A stretch of DNA of 64,000 nt from an uncultured Oscillospiraceae bacterium (GTDB taxonomy: Bacteria > Bacillota > Clostridia > Oscillospirales > Oscillospiraceae): contig CALWXR010000001.1 in assembly GCA_944385535.1 (NCBI GenBank), positions 1-64,000 on the forward strand. Direction: 5' to 3'. The notes beneath the pieces are model-generated. The model did no database searches. It had not been told where the DNA came from and saw only the letters and a list, made by a program, of their open reading frames with translations. The number at the start of each line of letters is the position of its first letter. The first letter of the stretch is position 1. The translations under genes were made by a program, and so were the position numbers. Of this stretch, positions 2,410 through 19,453 are shown piece by piece.

Positions 2410-3840
2410 TTATTCGTCAACTATAAAGATATTACCGTCCGGGGCCAGACCTATTATATCGCATCGGTCAGCCTGCGCGTATATGATATGCTCGGCAATG
2501 TTGCGTGTGATCAGCTCCCCGGGCGCGAGCAGGGGTATGCCAGGGGTATAACACATAACAAAACCACTGCTGACGCTGTTGACGCTGTCCCGAATTCCTA
2601 CAACCCTGTTTCTCGAATAAAAGGCCTTTTGGGGTAGCATTTTTATTATCGGGGAGAAATACTCGTAATCAAATTCGTACAGGCGGGTATTTTTATATTT
2701 TTCGCTGATTTCCCTCAGCGCAGAAACCAGGCTGCGATAATACTTTTCCTTATCGCCAACTGATCCGATCGCCAGAATGTTCCTGATATCCCCGAACTCG
2801 AGCTGGATTTTGTAGCGTTTGTTGAGGATGATGTAAACATCACTGCCTGTCAGTCCGATCTCAACTGTATTAATGCTAAGTTTAGTCGGATCAAGGTCAT
2901 ATATAGATTTTCCGTTCAGAATGTCCTTATCAAAGGCGTAATAGTTGCCGATCCTGTTTATCTCGTCCCTGGCCCTGCAGGCATACATCATGCTGCGCCC
3001 GACGGCTTCCCTTCCATTGAAATAAAGGTTTTTCCTGGCGATGTCAAGCGAAGCAAGCAGCAGGTAAGAAGCGCTTGTCGTCTGCAGCAGGGATATGATG
3101 CTGCGAATATACGAGGGCGGTATTGTCCCGCTCGACAGGAGAGCGGCGGCCTGCGTCAGAGCCCCTCCCGTCTTGTGCATGCTTACCGCAGAGAGGTCGG
3201 CCCCGCTGTCCATAGCGTTGGCTGGCATATTCTCGTTGAAATAAAAATGCGTGCCGTGCGCCTCGTCTACAATGACATACATTCCGTAGGAATGGGCAAG
3301 CTCTACGATCGTTTTGATATCAGGGCAGATACCGTAATAGGTTGGGTTGATGACAAATACGGCCTTGGCATCCGTATTCCGTTTTATACAGTCCTCGAAG
3401 GACTCGACGCTTGTGCCAAGAGAAATGCCCAGCCTGTCATCTATACCGGGGTCGGCATAAACAGGAATAATCCCCGATATGATCGTTGAGTTAATGCAGC
3501 TTACATGGGCGTTCCTTGGAATTATGAGCTTATCACCCGGCGAGCAAACACTCATAATCATCGCGTGTACGCATGAAGTAGCGCCGCCTACCATGAAAAA
3601 GCTGTCCTTAGCCCTAAAAGCTTCGGCAAACAATGCCTCTGCCTCGCTGATCGCACCCTTTGGCTGGTTGAGGAAGTCAATTCCCGGCCGCGAGTTCTTA
3701 TCAAGGAAAACAGCCCTTTCCCCAAAATAATCCTGAAGCTCTATTATATTGCCTTTATGTCCGGGGACGTCGAAGGGAATGAATTGCTCCTGCGAATTTG
3801 CCGATAAGGCATCAGCAAGAGGGGTTTGTTCCTGATTCAT
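2410..3840 (-). CDS. PLP-dependent Orn/Lys/Arg decarboxylase-family enzyme
   Basis: A fold-type I decarboxylase of 476 aa, similar in length to SpeA/lysine-decarboxylase group proteins. FDVPGHKG (about 23-30) is the family N-terminal signature, VDEAHGTHF carries the cofactor-binding Asp and His, and SMHKTGG holds the Schiff-base lysine. The family removes the alpha-carboxylate of basic amino acids. It is the last gene of the leftward operon and overlaps the CTP-synthase-like gene by 29 bases. Inference: it decarboxylates an amino acid building block or the C-terminal residue of the peptide product, though a plain arginine or lysine decarboxylase cannot be excluded. Confidence 0.85.
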   Translation of the reverse strand: MNQEQTPLADALSANSQEQFIPFDVPGHKGNIIELQDYFGERAVFLDKNSRPGIDFLNQPKGAISEAEALFAEAFRAKDSFFMVGGATSCVHAMIMSVCSPGDKLIIPRNAHVSCINSTIISGIIPVYADPGIDDRLGISLGTSVESFEDCIKRNTDAKAVFVINPTYYGICPDIKTIVELAHSYGMYVIVDEAHGTHFYFNENMPANAMDSGADLSAVSMHKTGGALTQAAALLSSGTIPPSYIRSIISLLQTTSASYLLLASLDIARKNLYFNGREAVGRSMMYACRARDEINRIGNYYAFDKDILNGKSIYDLDPTKLSINTVEIGLTGSDVYIILNKRYKIQLEFGDIRNILAIGSVGDKEKYYRSLVSALREISEKYKNTRLYEFDYEYFSPIIKMLPQKAFYSRNRVVGIRDSVNSVSSGFVMCYTPGIPLLAPGELITRNIAEHIIYAQADRCDIIGLAPDGNIFIVDE

Positions 3841-5365
3841 ATGCGCTGTCCTGTAATTCTTCTTCTATATTCAGGTTTAAAAGATGGGAAAACAGAAGAT
3901 TAGGTGAATAAGGGCGGGAGGTATATTCGGGCTGCGAAACTGCGCCTATACAATACGGGTATTTTACTGGCCTGAACAGATGTATCTCTCTGTGCTGGCT
4001 GTCACAGCCGATGATCTCGATGTCTTTTCCCTCGTTGCCGCATATTGGTATAGTAAAATCGCGCCTGTGCCTGTCCCGCACCGCTCCAGCGGCGGAGTTC
4101 TTCAAATATGTATCGATCCTGCCGGTCACCAGCCTACCCGTCCTTTCGGTCGACATGCCAATGATATCGGCAAGGATACAGGCACCGTAGGAAATGCACA
4201 TCACCGGCTTTCCGTATTCCAGGATCTTTCTGAGCAGCGCGGCTTTATCCACGGGATTCTCGATGCCTTCGGTGACTATAAAGGCCTTATACGAAACGTT
4301 GTTTTCGAGCAGTCCGGCATATTCTCCGACACTCCTAAACCAATCGAAGCATATGTTCCTGCTATACCTTACGCCAAGCGAGACCAGCGCCTCATTCAGG
4401 CTGGTATAGCTTCCCCATGATTCGGAATCACCGATGATGGCGACGCGGTATTGCACTGCGTTAGCCAGCTTTACGATGCTCCTTGAGTAAGCTGCTAAGG
4501 AGGGGCGTGCCTCTACATCTGATTTCAATCCGCAGCGGGTCATGATCAGATCCAGCAACCCCTGTTTCCTGAGCATTTCGGGGACGTCATATATACTATT
4601 CACGTCATAGTCAAAAAAGATATGCTCTTCGCTCAAACAGGTTGCCCTGGATATCCTGCGCTTTATACCGCTGCCGACGGTTTTTTCCGAACGAATCAGC
4701 AGTGCGTCAGGCTTCAGGCAAAAGGAGCACGCCGTGTGGAAGCTCTGCTTAATGGGCTTTAATATAACATCCTGATTTATGACGTCGTTTTCCGCCCCTG
4801 CGCCGCTGCCCATGAGCGCAAGATACGACAGCTGTACTACAAATAAATCCAGCTCCGCCGAAAGGTTGCTGACCATTCTAAGGAAAAACTCGCTTTCAAA
4901 ATCCCCGACTGTGCCGCCAACCTCGAGAACTGCCGCGTCATTATCCGCGATCGCCTCAAACAGCTTTTCCTTGTAAATATCTATCAGGTGCGGGAAAACC
5001 GAAATGACTTCTCCTACCCTCCAGCGCTTACCGTCCTGATACGATATCAGCTCTTTAAGGCACTGGCCGTTCACTATATTATTGGCGGAAGGCAGTTCAA
5101 GCCCGGTAAACCTTTCGTACACCCCGAGGTCGGAATCCACCACGCCTCCGTCGGCCAGTACCGTGACCTCTTCATCGCTCCATCTGACCTCAGGTATGAC
5201 ATGGTATGGGTTCATCTGTTCAAAGCTGTAATTCATGAGGCCGTCATATTTTATGACGGTCGTTTTGATACCGTTCTCTATCAGCAAATTGCCGATTGAC
5301 GCGCAGACGACGCCCTTACCGCCCCCGGAGGTGACGCCTCCCAATACCGCTATAAGGCTTTTCAA
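3812..5365 (-). CDS. CTP-synthase paralogue with a degenerate glutaminase domain
   Basis: 517 aa colinear with PyrG. The amidoligase half keeps the P-loop (GGVTSGGGKG, near residue 9), DLGVYERF and EVGGTVGDFES, the last carrying the Mg-binding Glu. The C-terminal class I glutaminase half has lost its active site. Where PyrG has GICLGMQ there is CISYGAC, placing Ser at the nucleophile; the final HPE reads QPE; and the GGFG oxyanion strand is absent. It should therefore not hydrolyse glutamine. The start is TTG, with GGGGG about ten bases upstream. Family knowledge: PyrG aminates UTP. Inference: this copy uses ammonia or another amine on a UTP-like or product-linked nucleotide in the pathway. 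Confidence 0.85.
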   Translation of the reverse strand: MKSLIAVLGGVTSGGGKGVVCASIGNLLIENGIKTTVIKYDGLMNYSFEQMNPYHVIPEVRWSDEEVTVLADGGVVDSDLGVYERFTGLELPSANNIVNGQCLKELISYQDGKRWRVGEVISVFPHLIDIYKEKLFEAIADNDAAVLEVGGTVGDFESEFFLRMVSNLSAELDLFVVQLSYLALMGSGAGAENDVINQDVILKPIKQSFHTACSFCLKPDALLIRSEKTVGSGIKRRISRATCLSEEHIFFDYDVNSIYDVPEMLRKQGLLDLIMTRCGLKSDVEARPSLAAYSRSIVKLANAVQYRVAIIGDSESWGSYTSLNEALVSLGVRYSRNICFDWFRSVGEYAGLLENNVSYKAFIVTEGIENPVDKAALLRKILEYGKPVMCISYGACILADIIGMSTERTGRLVTGRIDTYLKNSAAGAVRDRHRRDFTIPICGNEGKDIEIIGCDSQHREIHLFRPVKYPYCIGAVSQPEYTSRPYSPNLLFSHLLNLNIEEELQDSAYESGTNPSC

Positions 5366-5430
5366 GAAAAAAATACCCCCATTTCATAAAAGGACTGTCT
5401 CGAAAGCCGCCGGCGCTTTCACCATGCGGC

Positions 5431-6393
5431 TCAGTTTTGTAACGTTTGTGGCCCTGAGGCCTGTATCCTCGAAAAAAGCTCCCGGCAACCGTCCATAATA
5501 TACCCGCGGTCGCCGCAGAGCTCGTATACGTCCGCCGAGCTGACCAGCCCGACAGCAAACAGAAACCGCTCCTTTGCAAAAACACTGTTGTCCATGTTCG
5601 GATATATCAGGCGGTCCGGCAGGTAATAATACCCTATTCCTGCTATATGGAGCGACATAAGGTCTAACAGCTTCCTGAGACCCTGCCCGGTGTTTTTATT
5701 TGTCCTGTTTTCGCAATAAGGCGTTAAAGACACTATCATCCTGACAGCGCTGCTTTCTTTGTAGCGCGGCACCGACATATAATATTTTTTGTTCATGTCA
5801 TCGTACGAGAAGGCTTCGCTGTACCGTTCCCTGCAAAAAAGGGTGTTGTTTCCGGCGAGTATGACCGCCATGTAATTTTCCTCGCCGATTATAACCGAGT
5901 CGTCGCCGATGATGCGGGCGCCGAAGTCCCTGCAGGCTGCCAGCGCGGCAGTGGTCTTTCCCGACCCGCTGTCACCCAGCAAAAGAATACCTGATCCCCC
6001 GATGTCAACGGCAGCGGAATGAATGTAATATAGCCCCCTGCGCTGCATGCAGGCCTGTATGACATATAATACCAGATAGCTCAGATGGCGTATATCCCTG
6101 CAAATATCCTTATAGGACGCGAAAAATTGCCCGTCCTCAAATTTGATCATGGGCCGGCTGCTGCCGTTTGTTATAGTCAGCTCCACGTCCGGGACGCCGT
6201 TGGACATATCTTCCGAGTACGAATATGCCGGCAGCATATGCCTTGAGAACAGGTTGGTCCTGAAATAATCGCGCACGTTTATTTCGTTGGTACAGACCTG
6301 CACCGAGATATTATAAACTGTGATATAGAATAAATATTCCATAATAAAAACGCTTTCGGCCGTCGCTTCAGCAGCACCTCCGGACAACGGCAT
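5431..6393 (-). CDS. HPr kinase-like (HprK-related) protein
   Basis: 320 aa with GDSGSGKTT (Walker A, about residue 138) followed by IGDDSVII, as in the HPr kinase/phosphorylase C-terminal fold. It lacks the HprK N-terminal domain architecture. Such orphan HprK-like proteins recur in RiPP clusters; in some lasso-peptide pathways they phosphorylate the precursor C-terminus. The start ATG overlaps the stop of the upstream nucleotidyltransferase (TGATG), so translation is probably coupled; an internal ATG at 6342 lacks a ribosome site. Inference: it phosphorylates the precursor peptide or an intermediate. Confidence 0.75.
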   Translation of the reverse strand: MPLSGGAAEATAESVFIMEYLFYITVYNISVQVCTNEINVRDYFRTNLFSRHMLPAYSYSEDMSNGVPDVELTITNGSSRPMIKFEDGQFFASYKDICRDIRHLSYLVLYVIQACMQRRGLYYIHSAAVDIGGSGILLLGDSGSGKTTAALAACRDFGARIIGDDSVIIGEENYMAVILAGNNTLFCRERYSEAFSYDDMNKKYYMSVPRYKESSAVRMIVSLTPYCENRTNKNTGQGLRKLLDLMSLHIAGIGYYYLPDRLIYPNMDNSVFAKERFLFAVGLVSSADVYELCGDRGYIMDGCRELFSRIQASGPQTLQN

Positions 6394-7187
6394 CAGGAAA
6401 TGTCGAACATCCGCTGAATGTCACTGTCCATCCTGTCCTTGAAAATGAATAGGTTCAAAATATTGTAATGGCTACTGCGATCCTTACCCGCCCTGCGTTC
6501 AGCCCGCATCCTCGAAATGATATTCTCCTGCAGCTTGTTGAGCGGTGACCGGACGTCGTAATGCTCGGAGCTGTATAACGGGACAGAGGTCAGCAGCTTT
6601 ATTGTCGGGATGCCGTAATAATACTCCGAGGGAGCGTCCTGCGTGTCCCTGTTGATAAAAAACAGCGGCAGCTGGATCCTGTAGCCTGACAAAGCCTTAA
6701 CGGATATTTTTGTTACGGGATTGGTCTTACCCAGAAAGCTTTTGCTGATATAGGTATTGTCCTGCTTGTATCTTCCATATTTCCATGATACTACGCCACG
6801 GCTCGCGCTGGTAAGGTCATAGGTACACATGTACCTGAAAAAGTCCTCCTCTATCAGGTCTATGGAGAACGCCACCCCGTTGATGCTTATCTTAGCCACA
6901 AGGTAATCAGCCAGCTTGTTACCGAGTATATAGCTTACATCCTCTAACGTGAAGCTGTCCTTCATGTATTTTGAGGAAAGCAGCCTGTCCCGGTTTTCAG
7001 CAGGATACACTATTACGAGGTCGATATCAGAATTGGCACCTACCGCGTTGTTCCTGCCCCACGCCAGCGATCCGACCAGAATCTCAGCCCCGATATGATC
7101 CTTTATCGAGGCAAGGAACAGCTCGTTCGTCTCCAGCAGTTTCCGGGCGTATACGTTATCCGTTTTGATTTTACTGAATTCAATCAT
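6393..7187 (-). CDS. Pol-beta-superfamily nucleotidyltransferase (second copy)
   Basis: 264 aa. The motif GSLAWGRNNAVGANSDIDLVIV (given as GSLAWG then SDIDLVIV) near residues 39-60 is the Gly-Ser plus Asp-x-Asp signature. FSIDLIEED around 135 supplies a plausible third metal-binding Asp. The family transfers NMP from an NTP to a hydroxyl or phosphate. It is coupled to the HprK-like gene downstream. It is not a close copy of the gene at 16876-17715, so the two probably act on different substrates. The acceptor is unknown. Confidence 0.7.
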   Translation of the reverse strand: MIEFSKIKTDNVYARKLLETNELFLASIKDHIGAEILVGSLAWGRNNAVGANSDIDLVIVYPAENRDRLLSSKYMKDSFTLEDVSYILGNKLADYLVAKISINGVAFSIDLIEEDFFRYMCTYDLTSASRGVVSWKYGRYKQDNTYISKSFLGKTNPVTKISVKALSGYRIQLPLFFINRDTQDAPSEYYYGIPTIKLLTSVPLYSSEHYDVRSPLNKLQENIISRMRAERRAGKDRSSHYNILNLFIFKDRMDSDIQRMFDIS

Positions 7188-7214
7188 TACTGCTCTTCAT
7201 CTTTCAATATTTTA

Positions 7215-7355: not shown

Positions 7356-7428
7356 TGAACGAAATGTCCTCCTTATACGCCACAGAGGGTGCCGTACCGG
7401 CTTATGTATTCTTAATTAGAAAAAGTGT

Positions 7429-8709
7429 TTAAAGGTTTTCCAGAAGGTCCAGGCAGAAATCGACATCCCTGTCGTATTGCTTCTTCCTTCTCATCCTTTG
7501 GGAATTGGAGAATATGCAAAGGCCGCCGCACTTGGCGTTGTCACAGTCCTCACAGATCTTTACCGCTTTCCTTCTGGTGGTGCACAGTTTTGCCACAATG
7601 TCGCTGTATTTCTCTATAGTCATGTCCTCGAGCCGGCCTATTGAGAACTCCCTCATGAACAGGCACGGCAGGATGCTGCCAGCGATCGATACGGTAAAGC
7701 CCTTCCTTCCCATATCGCAGCCGAAGAAATAGGTGTCCTTGTTGACCTCGACCTTAGGGCGCTTCAGTGAATCCCCGTATACCTTCATGGAGGATTTGCC
7801 TGCCGATTCCGACTCCTTATGCGAATTGTACCGCACCGCTCCTGCCTTGCCGGCCGGCACTACTGCGGCAAGTATAAGCTCAGCTCCGAATTTTTCAGCT
7901 ACGCCTACGATATGGTCTATATACTTCTCGTTTTCGTCGGTGACAGTCATGGAAATAAGGGTTCGTACATTGTTTTTCTGCAGGAATTCCAGCCCTTCGA
8001 TAACCTTGTCATAGATATCGCAGCCTCTTATCATGTTGTGGTAATTCCTGTCGCCGTCAAGGCTGATGGATACGCTTTCAGCGCCGAGGATCACCTGCTT
8101 GTGCCGCGAAAGCACGCTGCCGTTGGTAGCGATGCAGTATTTAAGCTCGTTTTCCTTAATGAAGCTGATTATTTCCTCGATATCGTCGCGCAGCAAGGGC
8201 TCACCGCCCGTGACCTCGATATACTGTATGCCCATGCTCTTCAGCTTGAGGAGCCTTTGCTTGATGGCCTCCAGCGGAGGATCCTTCTCGCAGCGCTCAA
8301 GGCCGTTATAGCAATGCGCGCAGTTTGCGTTGCAGCGCTGGGTGATCTCCAGCGTTGCATAATAAGCGGATATGCAGCTATCATAATAATGTACCTTGGG
8401 CTGATGGGTACCGTCCTCGCCAAGGTCGATGATTTTCTTTTTTATGAGCTGATTTATTTCGCCTGCCTCAAAGTCTTTTTTATTAAAGCAGAAGCCGTCC
8501 TTGAAGTAATTGCTGAAATTGCCTTCCGCGTATAAGGCTTGGTATAGCCCGTTGAAAATAAGCAGCGAATTCTTTGATATCCTGCACACGCACGAGGGCG
8601 ATATCCATAGCCTGTCCGGCAGGGCAGAAATATCCAGAACGCTGTTGTCCCTTATAAACTGTGTCTTGCAGGGCACGCTCAACGTGTACATTTTCTTGAC
8701 ATTTTCCAT
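7429..8709 (-). CDS. Radical SAM/SPASM peptide-modifying enzyme (PqqE/MftC-like)
   Basis: 426 aa. Residues 1-110 form a non-catalytic N-terminal region, perhaps a peptide-recognition fold. CNANCAHC (Cys126/130/133) binds the radical SAM cluster, and VTGGEPLLRDD and ISLDG are further barrel motifs. The C-terminus has a Cys-rich SPASM domain (CDMGRKGFTVSIAGSILPC, then CEDCDNAKCGGLC) for auxiliary iron-sulfur clusters. Enzymes of this build cross-link or decarboxylate residues in RiPP precursors. With a PqqD-like protein and a tiny precursor in the same operon, the 23-aa peptide is the likely substrate. Confidence 0.9.
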   Translation of the reverse strand: MENVKKMYTLSVPCKTQFIRDNSVLDISALPDRLWISPSCVCRISKNSLLIFNGLYQALYAEGNFSNYFKDGFCFNKKDFEAGEINQLIKKKIIDLGEDGTHQPKVHYYDSCISAYYATLEITQRCNANCAHCYNGLERCEKDPPLEAIKQRLLKLKSMGIQYIEVTGGEPLLRDDIEEIISFIKENELKYCIATNGSVLSRHKQVILGAESVSISLDGDRNYHNMIRGCDIYDKVIEGLEFLQKNNVRTLISMTVTDENEKYIDHIVGVAEKFGAELILAAVVPAGKAGAVRYNSHKESESAGKSSMKVYGDSLKRPKVEVNKDTYFFGCDMGRKGFTVSIAGSILPCLFMREFSIGRLEDMTIEKYSDIVAKLCTTRRKAVKICEDCDNAKCGGLCIFSNSQRMRRKKQYDRDVDFCLDLLENL

Positions 8710-8795: not shown

Positions 8796-9809
8796 TCAGA
8801 ACTGCCCCTTGCAGCATCTCTTGCAGATGGGATTCTCATCCGCGCTCTGCAGTTTTCTGATTAGCCCGATGCTGCGGCTGTTTTCAAGTATCTCCTGAAG
8901 GCTCGATTCGGTCAGATCGCCGATGCTGTAGCATTCGAAGCACGCACAGACGATTCCGTCCGGCTGGATAAGGAACATGTTGCCGACTTCAAGGCACCGT
9001 TTGAGGGTGACCCCCGGCCTGTCCAGATAATACCTGTACAATGCCTGCTTATCGGTGATCCCGGGCTTGATTTTTACCTTGACCTTCCGAGCCTTGGCAT
9101 AATCCTGTATTTCTCTTATCGTGTCATAGAGCATGTCTACGTCGTGGCTGTTTTCGAATACGTTACTGTTGTTGACATAATGTTTGAATTCCTTGATGCC
9201 GAGCACCGCGCGGTCATAAACAGCCTGCGCAGTTTCTTCCTTTTTGGAAAGGAAATTGACATGCTGGAACGTTGCCGCCACGCCGAACGCGGCTGCTGTA
9301 TCAATAATATACCTGTAGCAGCCAAGGTTCTCAGGATGCATAACGCAGTTCAGCTCTATGCTTACGTCGCTTTGCTTAGCTGAAAGATATTTCTCCAGGG
9401 CAGCGAGAGTTTTATCGCATGCCCCCGGGCACTTCCTCAGCGAGTCATGGATCTCCGCCGTACCGTCCAGCGATATGTTAAGGAACATCGGGTGCATAGC
9501 AGCAAACCTTTCTATCTGCTCGCCGCTAATCACAGAGAAATTGCTCATTATACCGTACGGGATATCCAGCTTCTCAAGGTACGCCAATATATTGCAAAAA
9601 TCACTGCGCATGAAAGGCTCGCCGCCGGAAATTTTGACCCTCGGCACCCTGCCGCCGAAATAATCGTAAAGCTTGTCGATTATGCTTATATCCTGTTCAT
9701 AGGATAGCTCCTTATGCAGCTGTGTGTGGTTCTGTTCGCCATACAAATGGCAGACCCTGCAGCGCTGGTTGCAGCGGTGGGTTATTTCCCAGAAAATATA
9801 ATTGATCAT
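8796..9809 (-). CDS. Second radical SAM enzyme with SPASM-type C-terminus
   Basis: About 337 aa from the ATG at 9809; an upstream GTG at 9839 is possible, but AAAGGA lies just ahead of 9809. CNQRCRVC (Cys13/17/20) is the SAM-cluster motif, ISGGEPFMRSD and ISLDG follow, and the C-terminus has CLEVGNMFLIQPDGIVCAC and CKRCC, a shortened SPASM/twitch-type set of Cys. There is no N-terminal extension, unlike its partner at 7429. Between the two genes lies a GCCGCC/GGCGGC hairpin. It probably catalyses a second radical step on the peptide or a released intermediate. Confidence 0.88.
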   Translation of the reverse strand: MINYIFWEITHRCNQRCRVCHLYGEQNHTQLHKELSYEQDISIIDKLYDYFGGRVPRVKISGGEPFMRSDFCNILAYLEKLDIPYGIMSNFSVISGEQIERFAAMHPMFLNISLDGTAEIHDSLRKCPGACDKTLAALEKYLSAKQSDVSIELNCVMHPENLGCYRYIIDTAAAFGVAATFQHVNFLSKKEETAQAVYDRAVLGIKEFKHYVNNSNVFENSHDVDMLYDTIREIQDYAKARKVKVKIKPGITDKQALYRYYLDRPGVTLKRCLEVGNMFLIQPDGIVCACFECYSIGDLTESSLQEILENSRSIGLIRKLQSADENPICKRCCKGQF

Positions 9810-9892
9810 ATTCGGGCATTCCTTTCGGCCGGGCTTCACGGCGCGGGCCGTATATATTCATTGACCCGCCCCAGCAGCGCGTATTGCGCCTG

Positions 9893-10807
9893 TCAATAAA
9901 AGTTCTTTACGATATCTTCTATTTTGGGCTTTGTAATATTGACATCCTCTATGTCGCCGTGCTGGCTGCACCAGCTGATAGCCTTCATAACGTCGGAGAT
10001 GTCTCCCTTGAAGGTAATGATCTTCTTACTGTTGATCTCGACGGTCTCCGCTTCAAAGAGAAAGTCTCCTTTTTCTCCACCGCGAGGGGTATAAACGATC
10101 TCGCAGTTTTTCCCGGAGTTCTTCTCATTTATTTCCCTCGAGGTGTCGTCGTACAGCACCTTGCCGTGGTTGAGCACGATTATCCTGCCGCAGATAGCGT
10201 CGACGTCGGTAAGGTCATGGGTCGTCAGCAGGATGGTCACGTTTTTCTCCCTGTTGAGATAGACCAGGAAATTGCGGATTTTTTCTTTTACCGAAATATC
10301 CAGACCGATGGTCGGTTCGTCAAGGACTATTATCCGAGGCTTGAAGCACAGCGCGGCTATTATCTCGCAGCGCATCCTCTGGCCAAGGCTGAGCAGCCTG
10401 ACCGGCTTGTCTACGATCTCGCGGGCATCCATTTCATCAATGATCTCGTCAAGCCACATGTCGAATTCGTCCTTCTCCACTCCATAGACCCTACGCAGAA
10501 GACGGAAGGTATCCATAGCCGGCAAATCCCACCACAGCTGGCTCCTCTGGCCGAAAACTATGCCTATGTCCTTCATCAGCTGCTTGCGGTTGTCAAATGT
10601 GTTCTTCCCGTCGACTGTGACAAATCCTTCGGTAGGGTACATGACACCCAGTATCATTTTTATCAGCGTAGATTTACCGGCGCCGTTGGGCCCGAGCAGT
10701 CCGACTATGCTGCCTTCCTTTATCTCAAGATCCAGGCTGTCTATAGCCGTTACCGCTTTTTTTGTGTTGTTATTGTATATCTTAGTTAATCCGTTTATTT
10801 TGATCAT
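9893..10807 (-). CDS. ABC exporter ATP-binding subunit
   Basis: 304 aa. LLGPNGAGKSTLIKM is Walker A, LSLGQRMRCEI the signature motif, IIVLDEPTIGLD Walker B, and TTHDL the switch His. A C-terminal extension of about 90 residues is typical of ABC-2 drug and antibiotic export ATPases. Two ABC-2 permease genes precede it with almost no spacing (10810), so the three encode one transporter, which probably exports the pathway product and may give self-protection. Confidence 0.92.
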   Translation of the reverse strand: MIKINGLTKIYNNNTKKAVTAIDSLDLEIKEGSIVGLLGPNGAGKSTLIKMILGVMYPTEGFVTVDGKNTFDNRKQLMKDIGIVFGQRSQLWWDLPAMDTFRLLRRVYGVEKDEFDMWLDEIIDEMDAREIVDKPVRLLSLGQRMRCEIIAALCFKPRIIVLDEPTIGLDISVKEKIRNFLVYLNREKNVTILLTTHDLTDVDAICGRIIVLNHGKVLYDDTSREINEKNSGKNCEIVYTPRGGEKGDFLFEAETVEINSKKIITFKGDISDVMKAISWCSQHGDIEDVNITKPKIEDIVKNFY

Positions 10808-10809
10808 TA

Positions 10810-11607
10810 TTAACCTCCCGCTCCTTCATACTTTTTGATTCCCAGCTTCCATACAAGCTTTGCTATGCCCCACATCAGGGCAGCTACAAGGAATATCACC
10901 AGCTTTATGACAGTGTGGTCGCCCTCTTTATTCAATATAACCATGGCGGGGTAATAGCTGATAAAAGCGACAGGCACTAAGTATGTAAATATTTCCTGCA
11001 GGATCCGGCTGTAGATAGTTATCGGGTAAACTATAGCCCGCAGCGTGCCGTGGGTGAAGATCCCGAGCAGCTCCCGCGAATTAATGATCCAGAAGGATAC
11101 GCTTGCTGTAATGATGAATATCGAGCTGTATATCACTGTACCCGTGACAAGGAATACGACCAGCCATAATATAGAGGTACTGCTGAAATTCTTGACACAC
11201 GAGTAGATTATGATCAGCAGGCCCAGCAGTACCTGCCCCAAACGATCAACGGGTATTTCCTCTATCATCGTACAGAAAAGATCGCTTTCGGGGCGTATCA
11301 GTTTTATGAGGAACTTACCGTTTTTCAGCTGCCTGGGGATGTTGTTGATACCGCACAGCAGCAGCCTGGACATCGCGTAGGCGACGGTAGCCATGCCGTA
11401 GATCAGCATTATCTCATATTTTGACCAGTTGTTGATATCCGATACCTTACTTATCAGGAAAAAAGTTGATATGAATTCGCAGAAGTAAGTAATAAACATC
11501 ACAAAGCACTTCAAAATGAAGGACGATCTGTATTGGAACTGTGATTTAAGGCTCATCGTCAGGCACATGGCCCAAACGCCGATCTTATGTTTAACCTCCC
11601 TGAACAT
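10810..11607 (-). CDS. ABC-2 family permease subunit
   Basis: 265 aa from the ATG at 11607 (starts MFREVKHKIGV), with AAGG close upstream and a 17-base overlap with the preceding permease gene. About six hydrophobic membrane segments are visible, for example FVMFITYFCEFISTFFLIS, plus a Trp/Ile-rich C-terminal helix. It pairs with the permease at 11591-12391 and the ATPase at 9893 in a heterodimeric exporter. The longer frame upstream to 11679 runs into the neighbour and is unlikely. Confidence 0.85.
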   Translation of the reverse strand: MFREVKHKIGVWAMCLTMSLKSQFQYRSSFILKCFVMFITYFCEFISTFFLISKVSDINNWSKYEIMLIYGMATVAYAMSRLLLCGINNIPRQLKNGKFLIKLIRPESDLFCTMIEEIPVDRLGQVLLGLLIIIYSCVKNFSSTSILWLVVFLVTGTVIYSSIFIITASVSFWIINSRELLGIFTHGTLRAIVYPITIYSRILQEIFTYLVPVAFISYYPAMVILNKEGDHTVIKLVIFLVAALMWGIAKLVWKLGIKKYEGAGG

Positions 11608-12391
11608 AGACCTTTTTCCTTTCCTTGTCATAAACGAAATAAGATACCAGCAACAGTGCCAGCGCCCAGAAGGTCTCAAGGAGAAGCAGCTTCGGTATGC
11701 TGCCCTCTGTACCGAGGATGATCGAGATAGGCAGATAAATCTGCGCGGAAAAAGGTAAATAGAGCGATATCCGGTAGAGCCATTCCGGAAAAATGTTCAG
11801 CGGCAGCAGTCCACCCGAGAAGAAAAGCTCAATCGCCATTATCAGGTCTACCACACCCATCGACGTGCTGGTTTTTATTGCCAGCATTACAATAATGAAC
11901 TGGATTTCGTTGGCGATAACAAGTCCGATAATGATCGAATAAACAAAGTAAAGCAGCATCATGGGCGTGACATGAGGATACCATTTCAGCGCAACCATTC
12001 CAATAAGCAGAAGCGGCAGGAAGCGCCAGAGCAGATAATACAGCACGCGCCCGGCCTCCATGCCGATAAGGTAACCGATCAGGCCGATGGGGTTGGTAAG
12101 GTAAAAAATAATATTCCCCGATTTTATCAGGTCATCTATATCTATCCCGCCCAGGCTGCCGCTAAGGCCGGTTATGGTCAGCAGCGCCTCAGTGAGGATG
12201 ACATAGCCGACGCCCTGCTGCACGGTATATGAGCTAATACCGTGTTTGATAAAGGCGACAAGTATGTACATCTGGATGATCAGCCAGAAGGAATTGACAA
12301 TTATGCCGAAGAGGTTAGACTGTTTATAGGTGGCGTTTGTCTTGTAGCTGAGCTTTGCTATATGCAGCAGGCATTTCAGTTTATCCATCAA
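11591..12391 (-). CDS. ABC-2 family permease subunit
   Basis: 266 aa with six predicted membrane helices (for example WLIIQMYILVAFI and LLYFVYSIIIGLVIA) and a Gly-rich GGLLPLNIFPEW loop, as in ABC-2 permeases such as those of antibiotic exporters. It lies seven bases after the shikimate-dehydrogenase-like gene in the transcript and overlaps its partner permease. Confidence 0.85.
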   Translation of the reverse strand: MMDKLKCLLHIAKLSYKTNATYKQSNLFGIIVNSFWLIIQMYILVAFIKHGISSYTVQQGVGYVILTEALLTITGLSGSLGGIDIDDLIKSGNIIFYLTNPIGLIGYLIGMEAGRVLYYLLWRFLPLLLIGMVALKWYPHVTPMMLLYFVYSIIIGLVIANEIQFIIVMLAIKTSTSMGVVDLIMAIELFFSGGLLPLNIFPEWLYRISLYLPFSAQIYLPISIILGTEGSIPKLLLLETFWALALLLVSYFVYDKERKKVYVQGG

Positions 12392-12398
12392 TATCGTG

Positions 12399-13871
12399 CT
12401 ACCTCCTGTTTTTGAAATAGTATTCGAGGACGGCGTCCTTCATCACAGCGGCGTGGGAAGCGTTCAGCTCGATATCAAACGCGTCGGTAAAGCTGAACAT
12501 AGCCTGCGAGACCAGCAGCTCGACCCCGGACACCGTTTTTATGCCGTGGAGCCTGCCTGCCTCAAGTAGCTTCGTTTCATAAGGGTTGTAAATGGATTCC
12601 ACAATTAGATTGCAGTTGACCATTTCGGCCAGCTGGGCTTCGGTAACGGCCATTTCATCCTCCCTGCCGTACATGCCGCATGGGGTGCCGTTGATGATCA
12701 CTTCGACATCTCGGGCGATCTCCGATATTTCGTCCGACGTTATTCTGACCAAAGCCGTCCCGTTATAGCGCGCGGTCTGGTTGTCCCTTGCCACCAGCGT
12801 ATCAGCCTTATCGCCCTCTATGTCATAGATATAGATTTTACCTGCGTGATCCCGGCTGAGCAGGACGGGCAGCGTCTGGATAACGCCTCCGGCACCAAGC
12901 ACAAGAAAGCGCCTGCCTCTGATGTCGTTATTCTGTTTAATTATCCTCAGGAGGCCGATGCCGTCGGTATTGGAGCCGCAGACGGCGCGCTGCCTTTTGA
13001 AGATGGTATTCACAGTCCTGTTCCGTTTGAGCGACGCGCTTGTCCGATCGCATTGCGCGAACGCCCAATTTTTCCACGGCATGGCGACGTTAAAGCCCAT
13101 AGCACCCATTTTGACGATTTCCTCGTCGTACTGCTTCTGCAGGAGGTCTATGTCGTCGGTATGGATGACCTTGTAGATTACCGGCAGCCCAAGATACCTG
13201 AACAGTGAGGTCCACATGACCGGAGCAAAGCTGTACTTATCTATCGAGCTGTTCCCTATGAGGCCCCACTCGAATACCTCATTGTCCTTCAAATTATCAT
13301 ACAGAGAACGGGTATCGTCGTATCTGCCGCACAGGTCAAAGCTTTTATCCGACAGGGCGCGAAGGATAAGGTCGTCAGTCCTGCCGTCACGTTTTTTATT
13401 GCCTGCGTCGCCGTCACGCGGCGCCGCTTTAGCGCAGTCCAGTATATCGGCCTTGAAAAGTGTGCTTAGGGTATACCTGCCGTTGACGAGGCAAATGACC
13501 TTTCCCTCGTTGCCAACGCTTACAGGCTGAGATGAAATGCCGCAGTATTCATAAAAATGTGCGGAAATGTGCTCCTCGAAGATGATGGTATCGATATTAT
13601 CGACCGCCTTTATGCTGAAGGGGCCGTATACTTTCCGGCAGCAGTCATGCTCATAGATGCCTATAAAAAAGGTGTACTGCATTTCCCTGGCGGCAAACAT
13701 TTCGAAGATATTCCCACTGTCAGACGCTTTTTTCCAGCTGAGGATGCTGCCGGTCGTGGAAATATGCAGGGTCAGGCCTTCGCCCCCGCCTGAGAGCGGG
13801 TTTTCGATCAAGAACCGGCGCTTTTCCTCCGAATTGTCATTGAACAATATTGCTATCTTATCGTTTATCAT
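12399..13871 (-). CDS. Shikimate-dehydrogenase-fold protein with an unknown N-terminal half
   Basis: 490 aa. The second half (about 200-490) follows AroE: WGLIGNSS, NVAMPWKNWAF with the catalytic Lys, GSNTDGIGLL with the catalytic Asp, the nucleotide loop GAGGVIQT, and INGTPCGMYG. The first 200 residues match nothing I know. AroE itself is about 280 aa, so this is a fusion or a large extension. The SLS substrate motif is replaced by DKYSF, so shikimate is probably not the substrate. Inference: an NAD(P)H-dependent keto reduction in the pathway. Confidence 0.75.
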   Translation of the reverse strand: MINDKIAILFNDNSEEKRRFLIENPLSGGGEGLTLHISTTGSILSWKKASDSGNIFEMFAAREMQYTFFIGIYEHDCCRKVYGPFSIKAVDNIDTIIFEEHISAHFYEYCGISSQPVSVGNEGKVICLVNGRYTLSTLFKADILDCAKAAPRDGDAGNKKRDGRTDDLILRALSDKSFDLCGRYDDTRSLYDNLKDNEVFEWGLIGNSSIDKYSFAPVMWTSLFRYLGLPVIYKVIHTDDIDLLQKQYDEEIVKMGAMGFNVAMPWKNWAFAQCDRTSASLKRNRTVNTIFKRQRAVCGSNTDGIGLLRIIKQNNDIRGRRFLVLGAGGVIQTLPVLLSRDHAGKIYIYDIEGDKADTLVARDNQTARYNGTALVRITSDEISEIARDVEVIINGTPCGMYGREDEMAVTEAQLAEMVNCNLIVESIYNPYETKLLEAGRLHGIKTVSGVELLVSQAMFSFTDAFDIELNASHAAVMKDAVLEYYFKNRR

Positions 13872-13966
13872 GTATAACCCGTACCTCTGTACGGCTCCTT
13901 ATTCTCATTTATTACGGGCAGGATATGCTGTCAAGGCGGATACGGAAGGTATGATAAAATAGCCGA

Positions 13967-14707
13967 TCAATCAGACAGCTCCGCTATGCTTCCCCTGACG
14001 GCGGCGCATATCCTTTCATGGACGGTGTTTTTGTCAGCCGAGGAATCGATCAGGACGCAGTTCGGCTTTTCCCTGAACAGTTCCATGTATTCCTTCCTGA
14101 TGATCCTCTGGTAGAGGGACCAGTTTTCGATCTTGCTCGCAGACAGCTCAAGGTCGCAGCCGGCCTCCCAGTAGGATACCTGCTCCTCGCTCACAAGGCC
14201 CTTGCGTTTTATGGCCTCCTGTTCGTCGATGTCCATGTATATTATCAGATCCGGTTCCCTCAATGAATCCAACACCTGCAGGAACTGCCCGCTGACATTT
14301 CTTGCCCGCGCCCGAACCAGCAGCGTATAAACATAGCGGTCCATCAGTACGGTCTTCCCGTCCTGCAGCACCGGAATGATATTGCGCGCGAGGGTGTCGG
14401 TTATGCCGGCAAGGAAGAGCAGGGTGCTCGTATAAGGATCGAAATTCTCCCATTTTCCTTTCAATACAGCGTGGTACACTGTGGAGGATTGCTTGTACGA
14501 ATGCTTTTCCGCCCTGATGTTATACCGGTCCATATGCTCCTTCAGCAGCTTTATCTGCGTGGATTTGCCTGCCCCGTCAAGCCCTTCAAAAACGATCATT
14601 TTTCCGGGCAGGTCGTCCAATTCGTGCTCCATCGACCTGCAGGGCTTATTCTTTGGGTAGTTTACGGTATTTTTGGAAAAATCTGGGACATCATCTATCA
14701 AAATCAT
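13967..14707 (-). CDS. Thymidylate-kinase-like P-loop kinase
   Basis: 246 aa. FEGLDGAGKSTQIKLL (Walker A, around residue 42) and MDRYVYTLL match dTMP kinase, and LIIYMDID is the next core strand. An extra N-terminal segment of about 35 residues precedes the fold. The gene overlaps the small gene at 14704 by four bases. A second dTMP kinase in a biosynthetic operon suggests phosphorylation of a nucleotide-like or hydroxylated intermediate. The true substrate is not visible. Confidence 0.75.
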   Translation of the reverse strand: MILIDDVPDFSKNTVNYPKNKPCRSMEHELDDLPGKMIVFEGLDGAGKSTQIKLLKEHMDRYNIRAEKHSYKQSSTVYHAVLKGKWENFDPYTSTLLFLAGITDTLARNIIPVLQDGKTVLMDRYVYTLLVRARARNVSGQFLQVLDSLREPDLIIYMDIDEQEAIKRKGLVSEEQVSYWEAGCDLELSASKIENWSLYQRIIRKEYMELFREKPNCVLIDSSADKNTVHERICAAVRGSIAELSD

Positions 14708-14910
14708 TGCTGCTCGCCGCCCTCCTCAACGGTCATTCCCTGGGCTTCGACGAACCGTTTGATCTCAGCGGCTTTTGAATAGTCTACGAGGCTCATGCCT
14801 TTATCGAAAATGCCACGGCCAAGTATCCATACGTAATCCCTGTTCATATAAGAAATCTGGACGCTGGATTCTCCGTTAGCGGTATCCCCTTCAGCCATTA
14901 TCAGCTTCAT
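14704..14910 (-). CDS. Small unknown protein of the RiPP operon
   Basis: 68 aa, acidic, including ISYMNRDYVWILGRGIFDKG. It has no membrane segment or Cys. It overlaps the SDR gene by 20 bases upstream and the kinase gene by four bases downstream, which supports real translation. An inner ATG at 14898 is an alternative start. I do not recognise the family; it may be a partner subunit of the kinase or of the SDR. Confidence 0.6.
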   Translation of the reverse strand: MKLIMAEGDTANGESSVQISYMNRDYVWILGRGIFDKGMSLVDYSKAAEIKRFVEAQGMTVEEGGEQQ

Positions 14911-15799
14911 CTTCAGTCATCTCCCTTAACATTTCGTCGACCGCCGGATATTTTATGCCTAACAGCCTCTCGGAACACGATACATTCAGCGATACGTTTT
15001 TGGGACGGTAGCTTTTGCCCGTGACGCTCACGATATTCGAAGCGTCGAGCCCAAGGAAGCCGGCTATTCTCAGCCCGAAATCATACCTGCTGATAGCCTC
15101 ACCGCCGCAGCAGTGGAGTATTCCGAGCGACCGTTTCTGTAATACCACGCGCAGCTGCCTGTACAGCGCCCCGACATACGTCGGCGATATTATCTCGTCA
15201 AAGGGCAGCTTAATAGTCTTTCCCGCCGAAAGCCTGGCTGCTACATGGTCGACGAATTCACTCTGGTTGACTACCTCGTCCCGGTCGAAATTGTCGCTCG
15301 AGGGGTTTATCCTGTAGTCGAACACCAGCGCTGTCCTGCATATGGTCACGCCGTCCAGGCCGAGCAGCCGACGTTCGACCTCGGCCTTGTACTTGCCGTA
15401 GTTATTTACCGGCGATGGCGCGGAATCCTCTTTGTAATCGCCCGCCTTCCCGTCAAACACCTGGTCGCTGGACATAAACACAAAATGCGCGCCGTTATTC
15501 CTTGAAAGCTTGTACAATTCAAGCGCTGCAAGCACATTGGTGCGGTATGCACCCGGATCGTTTTCGCATACGACAAGGCTTTTTTCCGCTGCAAGATGCA
15601 GGACGGCGTCTATTTTATACTTTGCGAACAGACCCTGTAAAAAATCCCTGTCCTCAATATTTCCCCGGACAAACTGGGGGCCGCCGCTTACCGGGCGGGG
15701 GAGCTCCTGTCTGTCAGTAGCCAGTATGTCATACTCTTTCGATAAATGCCGCATGCAGTATCCGCCTATAAAACCTGTTGCCCCCGTTATCAGTAACAT
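14891..15799 (-). CDS. Extended SDR, NAD-dependent epimerase / RmlD-like reductase
   Basis: 302 aa from the ATG at 15799, chosen because AGGGGG lies upstream and the Rossmann motif GATGFIGG then sits at the very N-terminus; the frame stays open to 15862. SSDQVFDG and NNYGKYK (catalytic Tyr and Lys) follow, as in dTDP-4-dehydrorhamnose reductases. These enzymes reduce or epimerise sugar nucleotides. With nucleotidyltransferases and a CTP-synthase paralogue in the same operon, a nucleotide-linked substrate is plausible but unproven. Confidence 0.82.
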   Translation of the reverse strand: MLLITGATGFIGGYCMRHLSKEYDILATDRQELPRPVSGGPQFVRGNIEDRDFLQGLFAKYKIDAVLHLAAEKSLVVCENDPGAYRTNVLAALELYKLSRNNGAHFVFMSSDQVFDGKAGDYKEDSAPSPVNNYGKYKAEVERRLLGLDGVTICRTALVFDYRINPSSDNFDRDEVVNQSEFVDHVAARLSAGKTIKLPFDEIISPTYVGALYRQLRVVLQKRSLGILHCCGGEAISRYDFGLRIAGFLGLDASNIVSVTGKSYRPKNVSLNVSCSERLLGIKYPAVDEMLREMTEDEADNG

Positions 15800-15870
15800 A
15801 TTGTTATTTACCCCCTGTTGATTTTGTCCCGCGTCGGAGCGGGCCGGTCCGGAGCCGGGCACGCGCGGCG

Positions 15871-16614
15871 CTACAGGTCAATGTCTATCTCATCTTCGCT
15901 GTCATCACTGTTTTTTACCAGCAGCAGGTTCAGGCACACATATATTTCGCTGGAATTGCAAAGCAGGTGGAAAACGATGCTGGGGATCAGCGACCTTGAA
16001 AGGCTGTAAAGGACAGCCGATACCATGCCCGCGCCAAACTGCTTGGCATAGTCGGCGAACCTGTATTTATCCCCCCACGGCAGGCTCGCATGGTAGAGCA
16101 CGAACATAACGGCGCTGATAAGCATGTATATCCAGTTGAAGTACCTGTCGCCGATAAGATAGTATCTGAAAAAGTACTCCTCGCATATCGCGGCACCTAT
16201 CAGATTGTAGATCATCAGCACGCGGGCATAGTCCTCCTCTTTACTGTCCGCGAACAGCCGTTCCCTGACAATGACCAGCTTGGTCTTGCTGTACTCAGCG
16301 GCAAACACCGCTGCGCCGGCGAGCACAGCGGCGAGCACCGCCCACCACTGGCCGTTCAGGCCATTAAGCACCCTGTTATGGACCAACACCGCCGGCAGCA
16401 GAAAAACCGTAAAATAAATAGTCATCCTAAGAAAATATGTAAGATGACTAGATTTGGGTATTCTCCTTGTATTGCCCAATACAAGGAGAATAAGCACCCA
16501 GAATAAGATTTTTTCTGAATTTCCCCAATACGCCAGTATCATGACCAAGGAAGCTATATATGCCAATGAGCTTTTATAATTGATCACATTGTTAATTATC
16601 GCTTTCTTTTCCAT
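15871..16614 (-). CDS. CPBP-family intramembrane metalloprotease
   Basis: 247 aa with about eight hydrophobic segments. The three CPBP/Abi motifs are present: EEYFFR (near residue 145), FVLYH (near 172) and IVFHLLCN. The family cleaves membrane-proximal peptides and is often found with bacteriocin genes for maturation or immunity. The gene overlaps the PqqD-like gene by 23 bases. Inference: it releases the modified C-terminus from the leader or protects the producer. No other peptidase is visible in the operon. Confidence 0.85.
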   Translation of the reverse strand: MEKKAIINNVINYKSSLAYIASLVMILAYWGNSEKILFWVLILLVLGNTRRIPKSSHLTYFLRMTIYFTVFLLPAVLVHNRVLNGLNGQWWAVLAAVLAGAAVFAAEYSKTKLVIVRERLFADSKEEDYARVLMIYNLIGAAICEEYFFRYYLIGDRYFNWIYMLISAVMFVLYHASLPWGDKYRFADYAKQFGAGMVSAVLYSLSRSLIPSIVFHLLCNSSEIYVCLNLLLVKNSDDSEDEIDIDL

Positions 16615-16876
16615 TACCCACCGCGCCGATAGAAATCAAAAAGCTGATGTAAGAATCGACATCTGTCCTTATCTGGGCGGGTGTCGTATCCTCATACTTC
16701 GTGTTTACCTTTCCGACGAACTCGTCGAGCGTCATATCCTTGCCAACGTACTTCCAGACGATGGCGCCCATATCATTAAGCAGATAGCAAGAACCGCTTC
16801 CGTATAGATAATATTTGCCCTCGATCTCACGGACCTTGAATTTCTTTTTCCTGTATAATTCGCTGAAGCTGTCCAT
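16592..16876 (-). CDS. PqqD-type peptide chaperone (RiPP recognition element)
   Basis: 94 aa. The sequence YYLYGSGSCYLLNDMGAIVW followed by a helical C-terminus fits the PqqD fold, whose winged-helix surface binds RiPP leader peptides and presents them to a radical SAM enzyme. Its start overlaps the stop of the upstream nucleotidyltransferase (TAATG), so the two are co-translated. It is the strongest single sign that this operon modifies a peptide. Confidence 0.85.
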   Translation of the reverse strand: MDSFSELYRKKKFKVREIEGKYYLYGSGSCYLLNDMGAIVWKYVGKDMTLDEFVGKVNTKYEDTTPAQIRTDVDSYISFLISIGAVGNGKESDN

Positions 16877-17715
16877 TATAAATCAATCTCCATTTGCAGA
16901 TCTTCTATTGTATCTTCCATAGCATCCAGGAACGCCTCCGTGGCCTGCCTGCCACCGCTGAACCCGTCAAACAGTATCCTCCGGACGCTGACATATACGT
17001 CCTGATACTTTTTCCGCATATGCACAAGGTTCGAGAATTTCAGCCATATCCACTTATCCCGGTCGCACATTTCGTTTTCCGTATACAGGATATACTTCAT
17101 ATATTCGATGGCGCAGCTCCTCGCCATGAGGAGCGCCGTTTCATATTCTGTATTTGCAAGATTCCCGTATACATCCTGGGTAAGGTCATCAAGTCTTGTT
17201 AATATGTATCTTTTATACACTTGAATGAAGGTATCATATATCTTGCCGCTGATGAGCCGGCGGTAATTCTCCTCCCCGTAAATGCACACGGATGCCCTGT
17301 ATCTGGTGAGAAAGCTGTTTATCGAGGTCATATCCCAGCCCTCCGGCCAGTCGATCATATTTACTACCCTGCAATCCTGCGATATATTTGCGTTTTCGAT
17401 CGAACCCAAGAGCTTATCGATCTCGTCCCTGTTGTAGATAATAACATCGAACGAGAAATCCTTCGAATCAATAAAGAACGTCTTTTTTATGGATTCCTTG
17501 TACTCGCTTTCGGAATCCCTGAAATCCGATCCGCCCTTTATAATAAAAACATCCACATCAGAGGATTCGTTGCCCATTCCCCCGCTGAGTGGATTGACCG
17601 AGCCATCGACCAGCGACCCCCCGATATATACTATATCGTCCGCGCCGGCGTTAAGGCGCGGCAGTATCGTTTCTGTATCAAGGCTCCTTTTTATCTGTTT
17701 GAACTGTATAATCAT
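16876..17715 (-). CDS. Pol-beta-superfamily nucleotidyltransferase (first copy)
   Basis: 279 aa. GGSLVDG followed by ESSDVDVFII (residues about 32-58) is the Gly-Ser/Asp-x-Asp active site, and FSFDVIIY near 95 gives the third Asp. The C-terminal half is helical, like kanamycin-nucleotidyltransferase-type proteins. It is the first enzyme gene after the precursor, from which it is separated by a strong hairpin. The nucleotide acceptor is unknown; the peptide or a derived small molecule are the obvious candidates. Confidence 0.7.
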   Translation of the reverse strand: MIIQFKQIKRSLDTETILPRLNAGADDIVYIGGSLVDGSVNPLSGGMGNESSDVDVFIIKGGSDFRDSESEYKESIKKTFFIDSKDFSFDVIIYNRDEIDKLLGSIENANISQDCRVVNMIDWPEGWDMTSINSFLTRYRASVCIYGEENYRRLISGKIYDTFIQVYKRYILTRLDDLTQDVYGNLANTEYETALLMARSCAIEYMKYILYTENEMCDRDKWIWLKFSNLVHMRKKYQDVYVSVRRILFDGFSGGRQATEAFLDAMEDTIEDLQMEIDL

Positions 17716-17762
17716 TGCTTATCTCTCGTACCTTATGTTATAGTATTCTAATCAGCACCGTA

Positions 17763-17799
17763 GAACCTGCATAGCTTATGGAATAAGCTATGCAGGTTC
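17763..17799 (-). terminator. Strong hairpin between precursor gene and enzyme genes
   Basis: A perfect 16-base stem (17763-17778 with 17784-17799) has a five-base loop and no U-tract on either side. Its place directly after the precursor suggests partial read-through or mRNA end protection, which would give more precursor than enzyme. A second small stem (GATAATC/GATTATC) directly follows the precursor stop. Confidence 0.6.
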
Positions 17800-17846
17800 C
17801 ACATGGATAATTTCTGTGCAATCAGTGATAATCCTGAATGATTATC

Positions 17847-17918
17847 TTAATAGCACTCAGCGGCAAGTGCCTTCGGGAATTCGACCTGTACTGCAATCGG
17901 AGCCTCATACTTCTTCAC
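17847..17918 (-). CDS. RiPP precursor peptide (23 aa)
   Basis: A GTG at 17918 follows AAAGGAGG (17926-17933) at the ideal seven-base spacing and opens a 23-codon frame with a TAA at 17847-17849. The N-terminal part reads KKYEAPIAVQVEF, like the leader of many short clostridial RiPP precursors; the C-terminal part is PKALAAECY. An in-frame ATG at 17936 would add six residues but includes the ribosome site. It is the first gene of the operon that encodes the PqqD-like protein and two radical SAM enzymes. The terminal Tyr, preceded by Glu and Cys, recalls PQQ (Glu/Tyr) and mycofactocin (Val-Tyr), where a small molecule is excised from the peptide. Function is inferred. Confidence 0.8.
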   Translation of the reverse strand: MKKYEAPIAVQVEFPKALAAECY

Positions 17919-19426: not shown

Positions 19427-19453
19427 ATTGGGTGCCTCCATTCTTAAATCTGT

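Follow-up and report, generated by a model that had tools for sequence, protein, structure and literature searches.

We analysed the first 64,000 nucleotides (hereafter the window) of contig CALWXR010000001.1 from an uncultured Oscillospiraceae bacterium (assembly GCA_944385535.1; genome G000). The window, whose start is also the start of the contig, carries 16 genes arranged head to tail on the minus strand from position 17918 to position 2410. Spacing between the genes ranges from -89 to +241 bp, which suggests that they form an operon read as a single transcript. A previous reading made from the sequence alone had described this locus as a minus-strand operon headed by a gene for a 23-aa peptide. 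All 16 genes were found in the order it had named, their labels were backed by domain searches, and the peptide open reading frame (ORF, 17918-17850) is preceded by a ribosome-binding site. The genes and one RNA feature are listed in the order of transcription, with the supporting evidence in brackets.

17850..17918, minus strand: predicted precursor peptide gene, 23 aa (ORF and Shine-Dalgarno site)
17759..17803, minus strand: strong RNA hairpin separating the peptide gene from the genes that follow (folding energy and arm match)
16876..17715, minus strand: g1, nucleotidyltransferase with an ANT/kanamycin-nucleotidyltransferase-like predicted fold (AlphaFold2, AF2, and Foldseek)
16592..16876, minus strand: PqqD-like discrete RiPP recognition element (RRE; RiPP, ribosomally synthesized and post-translationally modified peptide) (PF05402, 32.5 bits vs cut-off 23.4)
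15871..16614, minus strand: cpbp, CPBP intramembrane protease (PF02517, 3e-15)
14891..15862, minus strand: RmlD/MAT2B-like short-chain dehydrogenase/reductase (SDR) (PF04321, 1.2e-37)
13967..14707, minus strand: dTMP-kinase-like kinase (PF02223; TIGR00041)
12399..13871, minus strand: AroE-fold oxidoreductase with a ~200-residue N-terminal extension (Pfam/NCBIfam searches)
11591..12391, minus strand: ATP-binding cassette (ABC)-2 type permease 1 (PF06182)
10810..11679, minus strand: ABC-2 type permease 2 (PF06182)
9893..10807, minus strand: DrrA-like ABC transporter ATPase (PF00005; TIGR01188 below cut-off)
8796..9839, minus strand: rSAM1, radical S-adenosylmethionine (SAM)/SPASM enzyme (PF04055, PF13186)
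7429..8709, minus strand: rSAM2, radical SAM enzyme with an N-terminal domain (PF04055)
6393..7187, minus strand: ntp2, second nucleotidyltransferase (PF01909, weak, 17 bits vs 21)
5431..6393, minus strand: hprk, HprK-like kinase (PF07475, 29 bits vs 33.3, below cut-off)
3812..5365, minus strand: ctps, CTP-synthase-like (CTPS-like) ligase whose glutaminase nucleophile position is occupied by Ser (Pfam/NCBIfam, alignment)
2410..3840, minus strand: OKR-type pyridoxal phosphate (PLP) decarboxylase (PF01276, 1.3e-62)

The dTMP-kinase-like protein scored above the NCBIfam equivalog cut-off for dTMP kinase (TIGR00041, 86.4 vs 83.25). The second nucleotidyltransferase contains a GS...DxD pattern, a motif of such enzymes.

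A second operon and the twelve-gene core

A scan of 84,980 species, with one genome per species, returned 184 stretches that matched the search pattern, and five of these encoded relatives. Only one, locus L003, carries the operon; it lies in G300, a Eubacterium metagenome-assembled genome from water-buffalo rumen, which apparently belongs to another genus than the window genome and holds the sole close homologue. DNA homology extends from window position 2377 to ~16,220, where it ends inside cpbp. Identity is 84-87%, except in one short stretch (73%), and parts of the region between rsam2 and ntp2 did not align. The 12 genes from the SDR to the decarboxylase are 79-91% identical at the protein level, with synonymous divergence (dS) of 0.48-0.77 and dN/dS ratios of 0.07-0.19. 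Aligned over 12,840 bp between the two genomes, this core contains no stop codon and a single gap block, and gene sizes agreed within 3 residues except for abcM2 and hprk, whose chosen starts lie 16 and 20 apart. The cpbp remnant of G300, in contrast, is frameshifted: over 372 bp it has 11 indels, and its nucleotide identity is 76%. Decay of the core in the manner of cpbp should have left ~380 indels, and ~47-65 stops are predicted from random substitution at 0.10-0.15 per site. The twelve-gene core is under purifying selection and is separable from the peptide cassette, by which we mean the peptide gene, g1, the PqqD-like gene and cpbp.

No match to g1 was identified in G300. The peptide also gave 0 matches at E up to 10, a weak test given the short query and the lack of a first-look candidate, and no stand-alone PqqD was found; the sole PqqD match is part of a radical SAM protein of 482 residues encoded on another contig. 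An assembly edge was rejected as the cause of the missing cassette, because the contig is 183,656 bp long and the homology ends mid-contig within cpbp. Since the core is open and constrained beside a decayed cpbp, the loss of the cassette was probably not recent, and the core has remained open in its absence.

We also examined the history of the operon. Between G000 and G300, the canonical CTP synthase PyrG has 79% protein and 70% DNA identity, with dS saturated (not computable), and is more diverged than the operon. The GC content of the G300 operon is 40.6% against 33.0% in its flank; the corresponding values in the window are 49.4% and 49.1%. Searches for the CTPS-like family at E up to 1e-60 or 1e-70 were positive for one genome among 136 from the window's genus (40 of these with completeness of 90% or more and contamination of 5% or less), one among 61 from the G300 genus, and one each among 394 sampled from the order and 391 from the class, where at most 3 first-look candidates were scored per genome; apart from G300 in its own genus, the positive genome was the window's own each time. 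The greater divergence of PyrG, the GC contrast in G300 and the rarity in both genera indicate that the operon was likely transferred horizontally. It is a real, rare biosynthetic operon and apparently a mobile one.

More distant relatives were sought in further collections. In viral_contigs no relative was present among 69 (CTPS) or 368 (g1) pattern matches. Protein searches of annotated records gave 52 plasmid records for the CTPS-like protein, 141 for rSAM2 and 33 phage records for the AroE-like protein, all below 60% identity, with the best 6-10 rows of each inspected. The CTPS-like protein P0010 (44%) and the rSAM2-like protein P0091 (56%) share a source, the longest contig being 16,858 bp for both, and the longest contigs likewise coincide for P0002 and P0082 (20,910 bp) and for P0005 and P0085 (183,656 bp). 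These matching lengths point indirectly to CTPS-like and rSAM2 relatives travelling together in distant sources.

Past the decarboxylase, G300 carries genes for a third radical SAM/SPASM protein, a metallo-beta-lactamase-fold protein and a CYTH-domain protein, none of which was found in the window. Upstream of the truncated operon, L013 (1-8856, G300) encodes ABC transporters (by similarity to the window ATPase), a BtrH_N protein, an NTP_transf_5 nucleotidyltransferase and, by eye, a 189-aa phosphopantetheinyl-transferase-like protein; these genes are perhaps another natural-product cluster.

The CTP-synthase-like family

Both G000 and G300 encode a canonical CTP synthase elsewhere, and the operon gene is therefore a paralogue; its product fell below the CTP synthase equivalog cut-offs (213 vs 308 and 193.6 vs 462.75). 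A database search, in which scoring was limited to the 7,996 candidates with the most words in common, revealed 13 proteins that stand out as a family (P0001-P0013, 33-100% identity). P0006, P0008 and P0009 were partial or rearranged and were not used, and P0014 and P0015 (28%) were added as distant members, giving an alignment of 12 rows (P0001-P0005, P0007, P0010-P0015). The kinase/ligase half resembles that of PyrG, with the P-loop and the EVGGTVGD-type motifs preserved across the family. The glutaminase half differs: the nucleophile Cys is replaced by Ser in 12/12 rows, the catalytic His by Gln in seven (five retain His), an 8-residue insertion is present in all 12, and the KTKPTQHS segment is changed. 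In CTP synthase, KTKPTQHS binds the UTP phosphates and the glutaminase triad generates ammonia. The window protein carries both replacements and so departs from the Cys/His/Glu triad of glutamine amidotransferases, while an archaeal copy (L004) has Gly at the nucleophile and Asn for His. With the nucleophile lost, glutamine is very likely not the nitrogen source, and another amine or free ammonia would take its place. The enzyme likely joins an amine, perhaps derived from the decarboxylase, to a pyrimidine-type nucleotide. This distinct family is the hallmark of the twelve-gene core.

The CTPS-like gene also has a recurrent partner. On the Aenigmatarchaeota contig L004, genes for an HprK-like kinase and a CTPS-like protein (E 3e-8 and 2e-45 to those of the window) lie one gene apart, in the order HprK-like kinase, HAD gene, CTPS-like gene; hprk also precedes ctps in the window, and P0014 is by its domains a CTPS-like/HAD fusion. 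The recurring pair suggests a common step. It is not widespread in the phylum of L004, where an HprK-like query matched 2 of 156 genomes, namely its own and one with a partial match containing stops.

Several single proteins deserve mention. The P-loop of the window protein reads GGVTSGGGKG, with V or I at the seventh position in the 10 other rows aligned; this is either a natural variant or the onset of decay. The genome of L004 (G431) gave a single CTP_synth_N match, and at 0.7 Mb may be incomplete. Three loci were excluded from the family counts: L005 and L006, whose glutaminase motifs look canonical, and L007, a CTP synthase of canonical type in which this motif is changed. The L007 protein (9857-11416, Bacteroidales, yak rumen) has the glutaminase motif PILCIGTSMQ and an intact KTKPTQHS, and is perhaps, by this motif, another CTP synthase with an impaired glutaminase.

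The peptide cassette, radical SAM enzymes and agr-like neighbours

The peptide gene starts with GTG and encodes VKKYEAPIAVQVEFPKALAAECY; an AGGAGG Shine-Dalgarno site lies immediately before the start codon, in AAAGGAGGAATTACA. The peptide contains YEAPIA, which fits the [Y/W]xxPx[L/V/I/A/F/Y] leader motif, ends in ECY and has no Ser or Thr. According to PMC13381572, this motif is bound by most discrete lasso RREs and is in part common to LPP and PQQ leaders. It arose in 16,001 of 200,000 shuffles of the peptide (8%). Among 783 small ORFs of the window 23 contain it, and two of these, located at other places, carry a Shine-Dalgarno-like site as well; the count of 23 takes each ORF from its longest start and probably includes the peptide's own frame. 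Because the motif is so common in shuffles and in other small ORFs, it gives moderate support only, and we rejected it as strong evidence by itself. The PqqD-like protein, above the PF05402 cut-off, has the mark of an RRE of RiPPs generally, and together with the leader motif fits the RiPP-type cassette previously proposed. The hairpin behind the peptide gene has a minimum free energy of -50.3 (z -5.7 for 17716-17860) and arms that match perfectly over 16 bases (17764-17779 / 17783-17798); Rfam gave 0 matches at the gathering threshold for window 1-24000.

No Pfam or NCBIfam match was identified for g1. Its AF2 model, built from four sequences (mean pLDDT 69.7), was nearest to ANT(4'')/kanamycin nucleotidyltransferases (Foldseek E 4.7e-5), with a weaker match to LinB (1.7e-3). 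At E up to 1e-6 the database search returned only four matches to g1, including one with 99% identity, and among 300 genomes sampled from the family only its own was positive (E up to 1e-8). With so few matches g1 may be the rarer part of the system, which fits its absence from G300.

For the radical SAM enzymes, SPASM scored above the cut-off in rSAM1 and slightly under it in rSAM2 (19.3 vs 21.5). The predicted fold of rSAM2 was nearest to SkfB and SuiB, with BlsE tied, although the likeness to the blasticidin-type BlsE is limited to the radical SAM part. The best NCBIfam match of rSAM2 was MftC (87.6 bits vs cut-off 265), and PqqE was not among its best 25 of 68 families; rSAM1 fell below the cut-offs of both MftC (62.8 vs 265) and PqqE (49.5 vs 381.35). 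The N-terminal domain of rSAM2 is at most a candidate RRE, and its reading as a proven one was rejected: profile comparison with PqqD gave only E 0.58, and the model consists of strands and one helix, not the strand/three-helix order described for SkfB.

Comparison with described systems revealed partial likenesses. According to PMC13381572, LPP clusters share with the window a YxxP-type leader, a discrete RRE, an HprK-like kinase, a nucleotidyltransferase and an ABC exporter in one cluster, and paeninodin-type lasso clusters share the kinase and the nucleotidyltransferase. Scanning 15 operon proteins gave no Pfam match to the Asn-synthase-like macrolactam synthetase or B2 peptidase of lasso systems and no match to the SpI-like signal peptidase of LPP systems, where the window has a CPBP protease. 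The window peptide also lacks the core Ser that is phosphorylated in LPP, neither window nucleotidyltransferase matches PF14907, and the window adds two radical SAM enzymes and the CTPS-like, dTMP-kinase-like, AroE-like, SDR and decarboxylase genes. By its sequence features, the front cassette resembles lasso and LPP systems and falls under neither definition. A survey of ruminal lasso clusters (PMC7533575) reported HprK in ~58%, PqqD in ~46% and a nucleotidyltransferase in ~30% of genomes. Mycofactocin and PQQ systems share a PqqD-like protein, a short precursor and a radical SAM/SPASM enzyme with the window but differ in the MftC and PqqE scores given above; the window has an exporter and nucleotide-type enzymes, and the Pfam tables of the operon proteins contain no MftD- or MftF-like domain. 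Microcin C-type systems (PMC6495379) share the proposed outcome, a short ribosomal peptide with a C-terminal nucleotide, but the enzymes are unrelated, with no ThiF/MccB-type match in the 15 scanned proteins.

Four agr-like genes, outside the gene list of the sequence-only reading, lie next to the operon:

18663..19265, minus strand: agrB, AgrB (PF04647, 1.9e-32)
19262..19441, minus strand: AgrD-like autoinducer peptide gene (TIGR04223, 16.4-16.8 bits, below cut-off 19)
20094..20807, plus strand: LytTR response regulator, AgrA-like (PF00072, PF04397)
20804..22114, plus strand: GHKL histidine kinase, AgrC-like (PF14501)

The agrB gene and the AgrD-like ORF, which has no Pfam match, are just upstream of the operon on the same strand, and the LytTR/GHKL pair is divergent. 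The agr genes may control the operon. A LytTR/GHKL pair also lies downstream of the G300 operon, but its two proteins share only 21% and 28% identity with those of the window. A small XRE-type helix-turn-helix-like ORF (by eye; 19705-20055, plus strand) lies between the AgrD-like gene and the regulator pair.

Proposed product and rival explanations

The reading we favour, tentatively, is that the twelve-gene core makes an exported product on an unusual pyrimidine-type nucleotide, to which the four-gene cassette adds an optional peptide part. The CTPS-like enzyme would use ATP to activate a ring carbonyl, and an amine would replace the glutamine-derived ammonia. The decarboxylase is the candidate source of this amine because its gene is adjacent and the two ORFs overlap by 29 bp. 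Phosphorylation of intermediates would fall to the dTMP-kinase-like and HprK-like kinases, changes to the ring, sugar or side chain to rSAM1, rSAM2, the SDR and the AroE-fold enzyme, and synthesis or transfer of the nucleotide to the second nucleotidyltransferase. Where the cassette is present, its PqqD-like protein would bind the peptide at YEAPIA, and g1 would either attach a nucleotide to this peptide or serve in self-protection. The candidate acceptor is the C-terminal Tyr, since the predicted core has no Ser or Thr and Tyr offers the only hydroxyl. The CPBP protease may help peptide release, by analogy with membrane peptidases of other RiPP systems; export would be the task of the ABC transporter, and the timing of expression that of the agr genes. 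Beyond the kept core and the ligase without its glutaminase nucleophile, we infer these steps from the enzyme families. The fully specified version, in which an N4-substituted cytidine-type nucleotide, formed by the CTPS-like ligase with the decarboxylase amine, is put by g1 on the C-terminal Tyr of the PqqD-held peptide under agr control, is improbable as a whole.

The sequence-only reading had proposed a single RiPP pathway, to be broken by homologous operons lacking a precursor or PqqD gene, and the sole readable homologue, G300, is of this kind. The gene set, the PqqD domain and the leader motif still speak for that proposal, and its nucleotide half has been strengthened; the G300 core, for which no peptide, g1 or stand-alone PqqD was found, counts against one obligate RiPP pathway. 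Such a pathway, with the 23-aa peptide as the sole substrate, modified by both radical SAM enzymes with PqqD as guide, and a small Glu-Cys-Tyr-derived unit cut out of it and decorated with a nucleotide, is possible but unlikely. The discrete PqqD domain, the YxxP motif, the Shine-Dalgarno site, the hairpin, the SkfB/SuiB-like fold of rSAM2 and its sub-threshold MftC match all agree with it. It would need the G300 operon to be dying or to serve another peptide, and the open, constrained G300 core beside a decayed cpbp, as well as the N-terminal domain of rSAM2, which is not detectably PqqD-like, argue against it. A different peptide sequence may nevertheless act in trans in G300.

The absence of the cassette from G300 also agrees with a nucleotide-derived small molecule that has no peptide part, the 23-aa ORF being a chance or a leader/regulatory sequence and PqqD and g1 being unrelated or serving self-protection. 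The shuffle and small-ORF frequencies of the motif, and the predicted g1 fold, which resembles antibiotic-inactivating nucleotidyltransferases, are in line with this explanation. We consider it unlikely, as it hardly explains why a PqqD gene sits between g1 and CPBP in one operon, a short way downstream of an ORF whose ribosome-binding site is good and whose beginning resembles a leader. An intracellular redox cofactor of the PQQ or mycofactocin kind, built from the residues at the C-terminus and completed by a nucleotide, is highly improbable: the precursor size and C-terminal Tyr resemble PqqA and MftA, and MftC is the best match of rSAM2, but the cut-offs of MftC (rSAM2) and PqqE (rSAM1) were not reached, and a secreted product is the better match to the dedicated ABC exporter, the agr-like neighbours and the rarity of the operon.

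The operon joins an RRE-guided peptide cassette to a nucleotide-handling enzyme set, for which no described pathway was found. Searches of the open-licence literature, which includes few subscription journals, gave no paper combining CTP synthase, radical SAM, PqqD and nucleotidyltransferase, and none joining CTP synthase with a nucleoside antibiotic and a biosynthetic gene cluster; the earlier statement that no RiPP class with this gene set was known agrees with this outcome. A CTPS-like family without its own ammonia supply poses a direct enzymatic question, namely which amine and which acceptor are used, and the G300 copy with its broken front is a natural experiment that splits the core from the accessory genes. 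Should the product turn out to be a modified nucleotide or a peptide-nucleotide, it would represent new antibiotic or signal chemistry from anaerobes.

Other features of the window were also recorded. An IS1595-family transposase gene (1043-1930) lies directly past the decarboxylase, near the contig start. On the other side, ~2.5 kb past the agr-like kinase, three large serine recombinases in a row are followed by a phage-type integrase (24572-30839), which is likely a mobile-element edge. Sortase and SpaA-type pilin genes occupy 33522-40790, and at 46594-51821 a type I restriction R-like gene adjoins a GmrSD-type gene.

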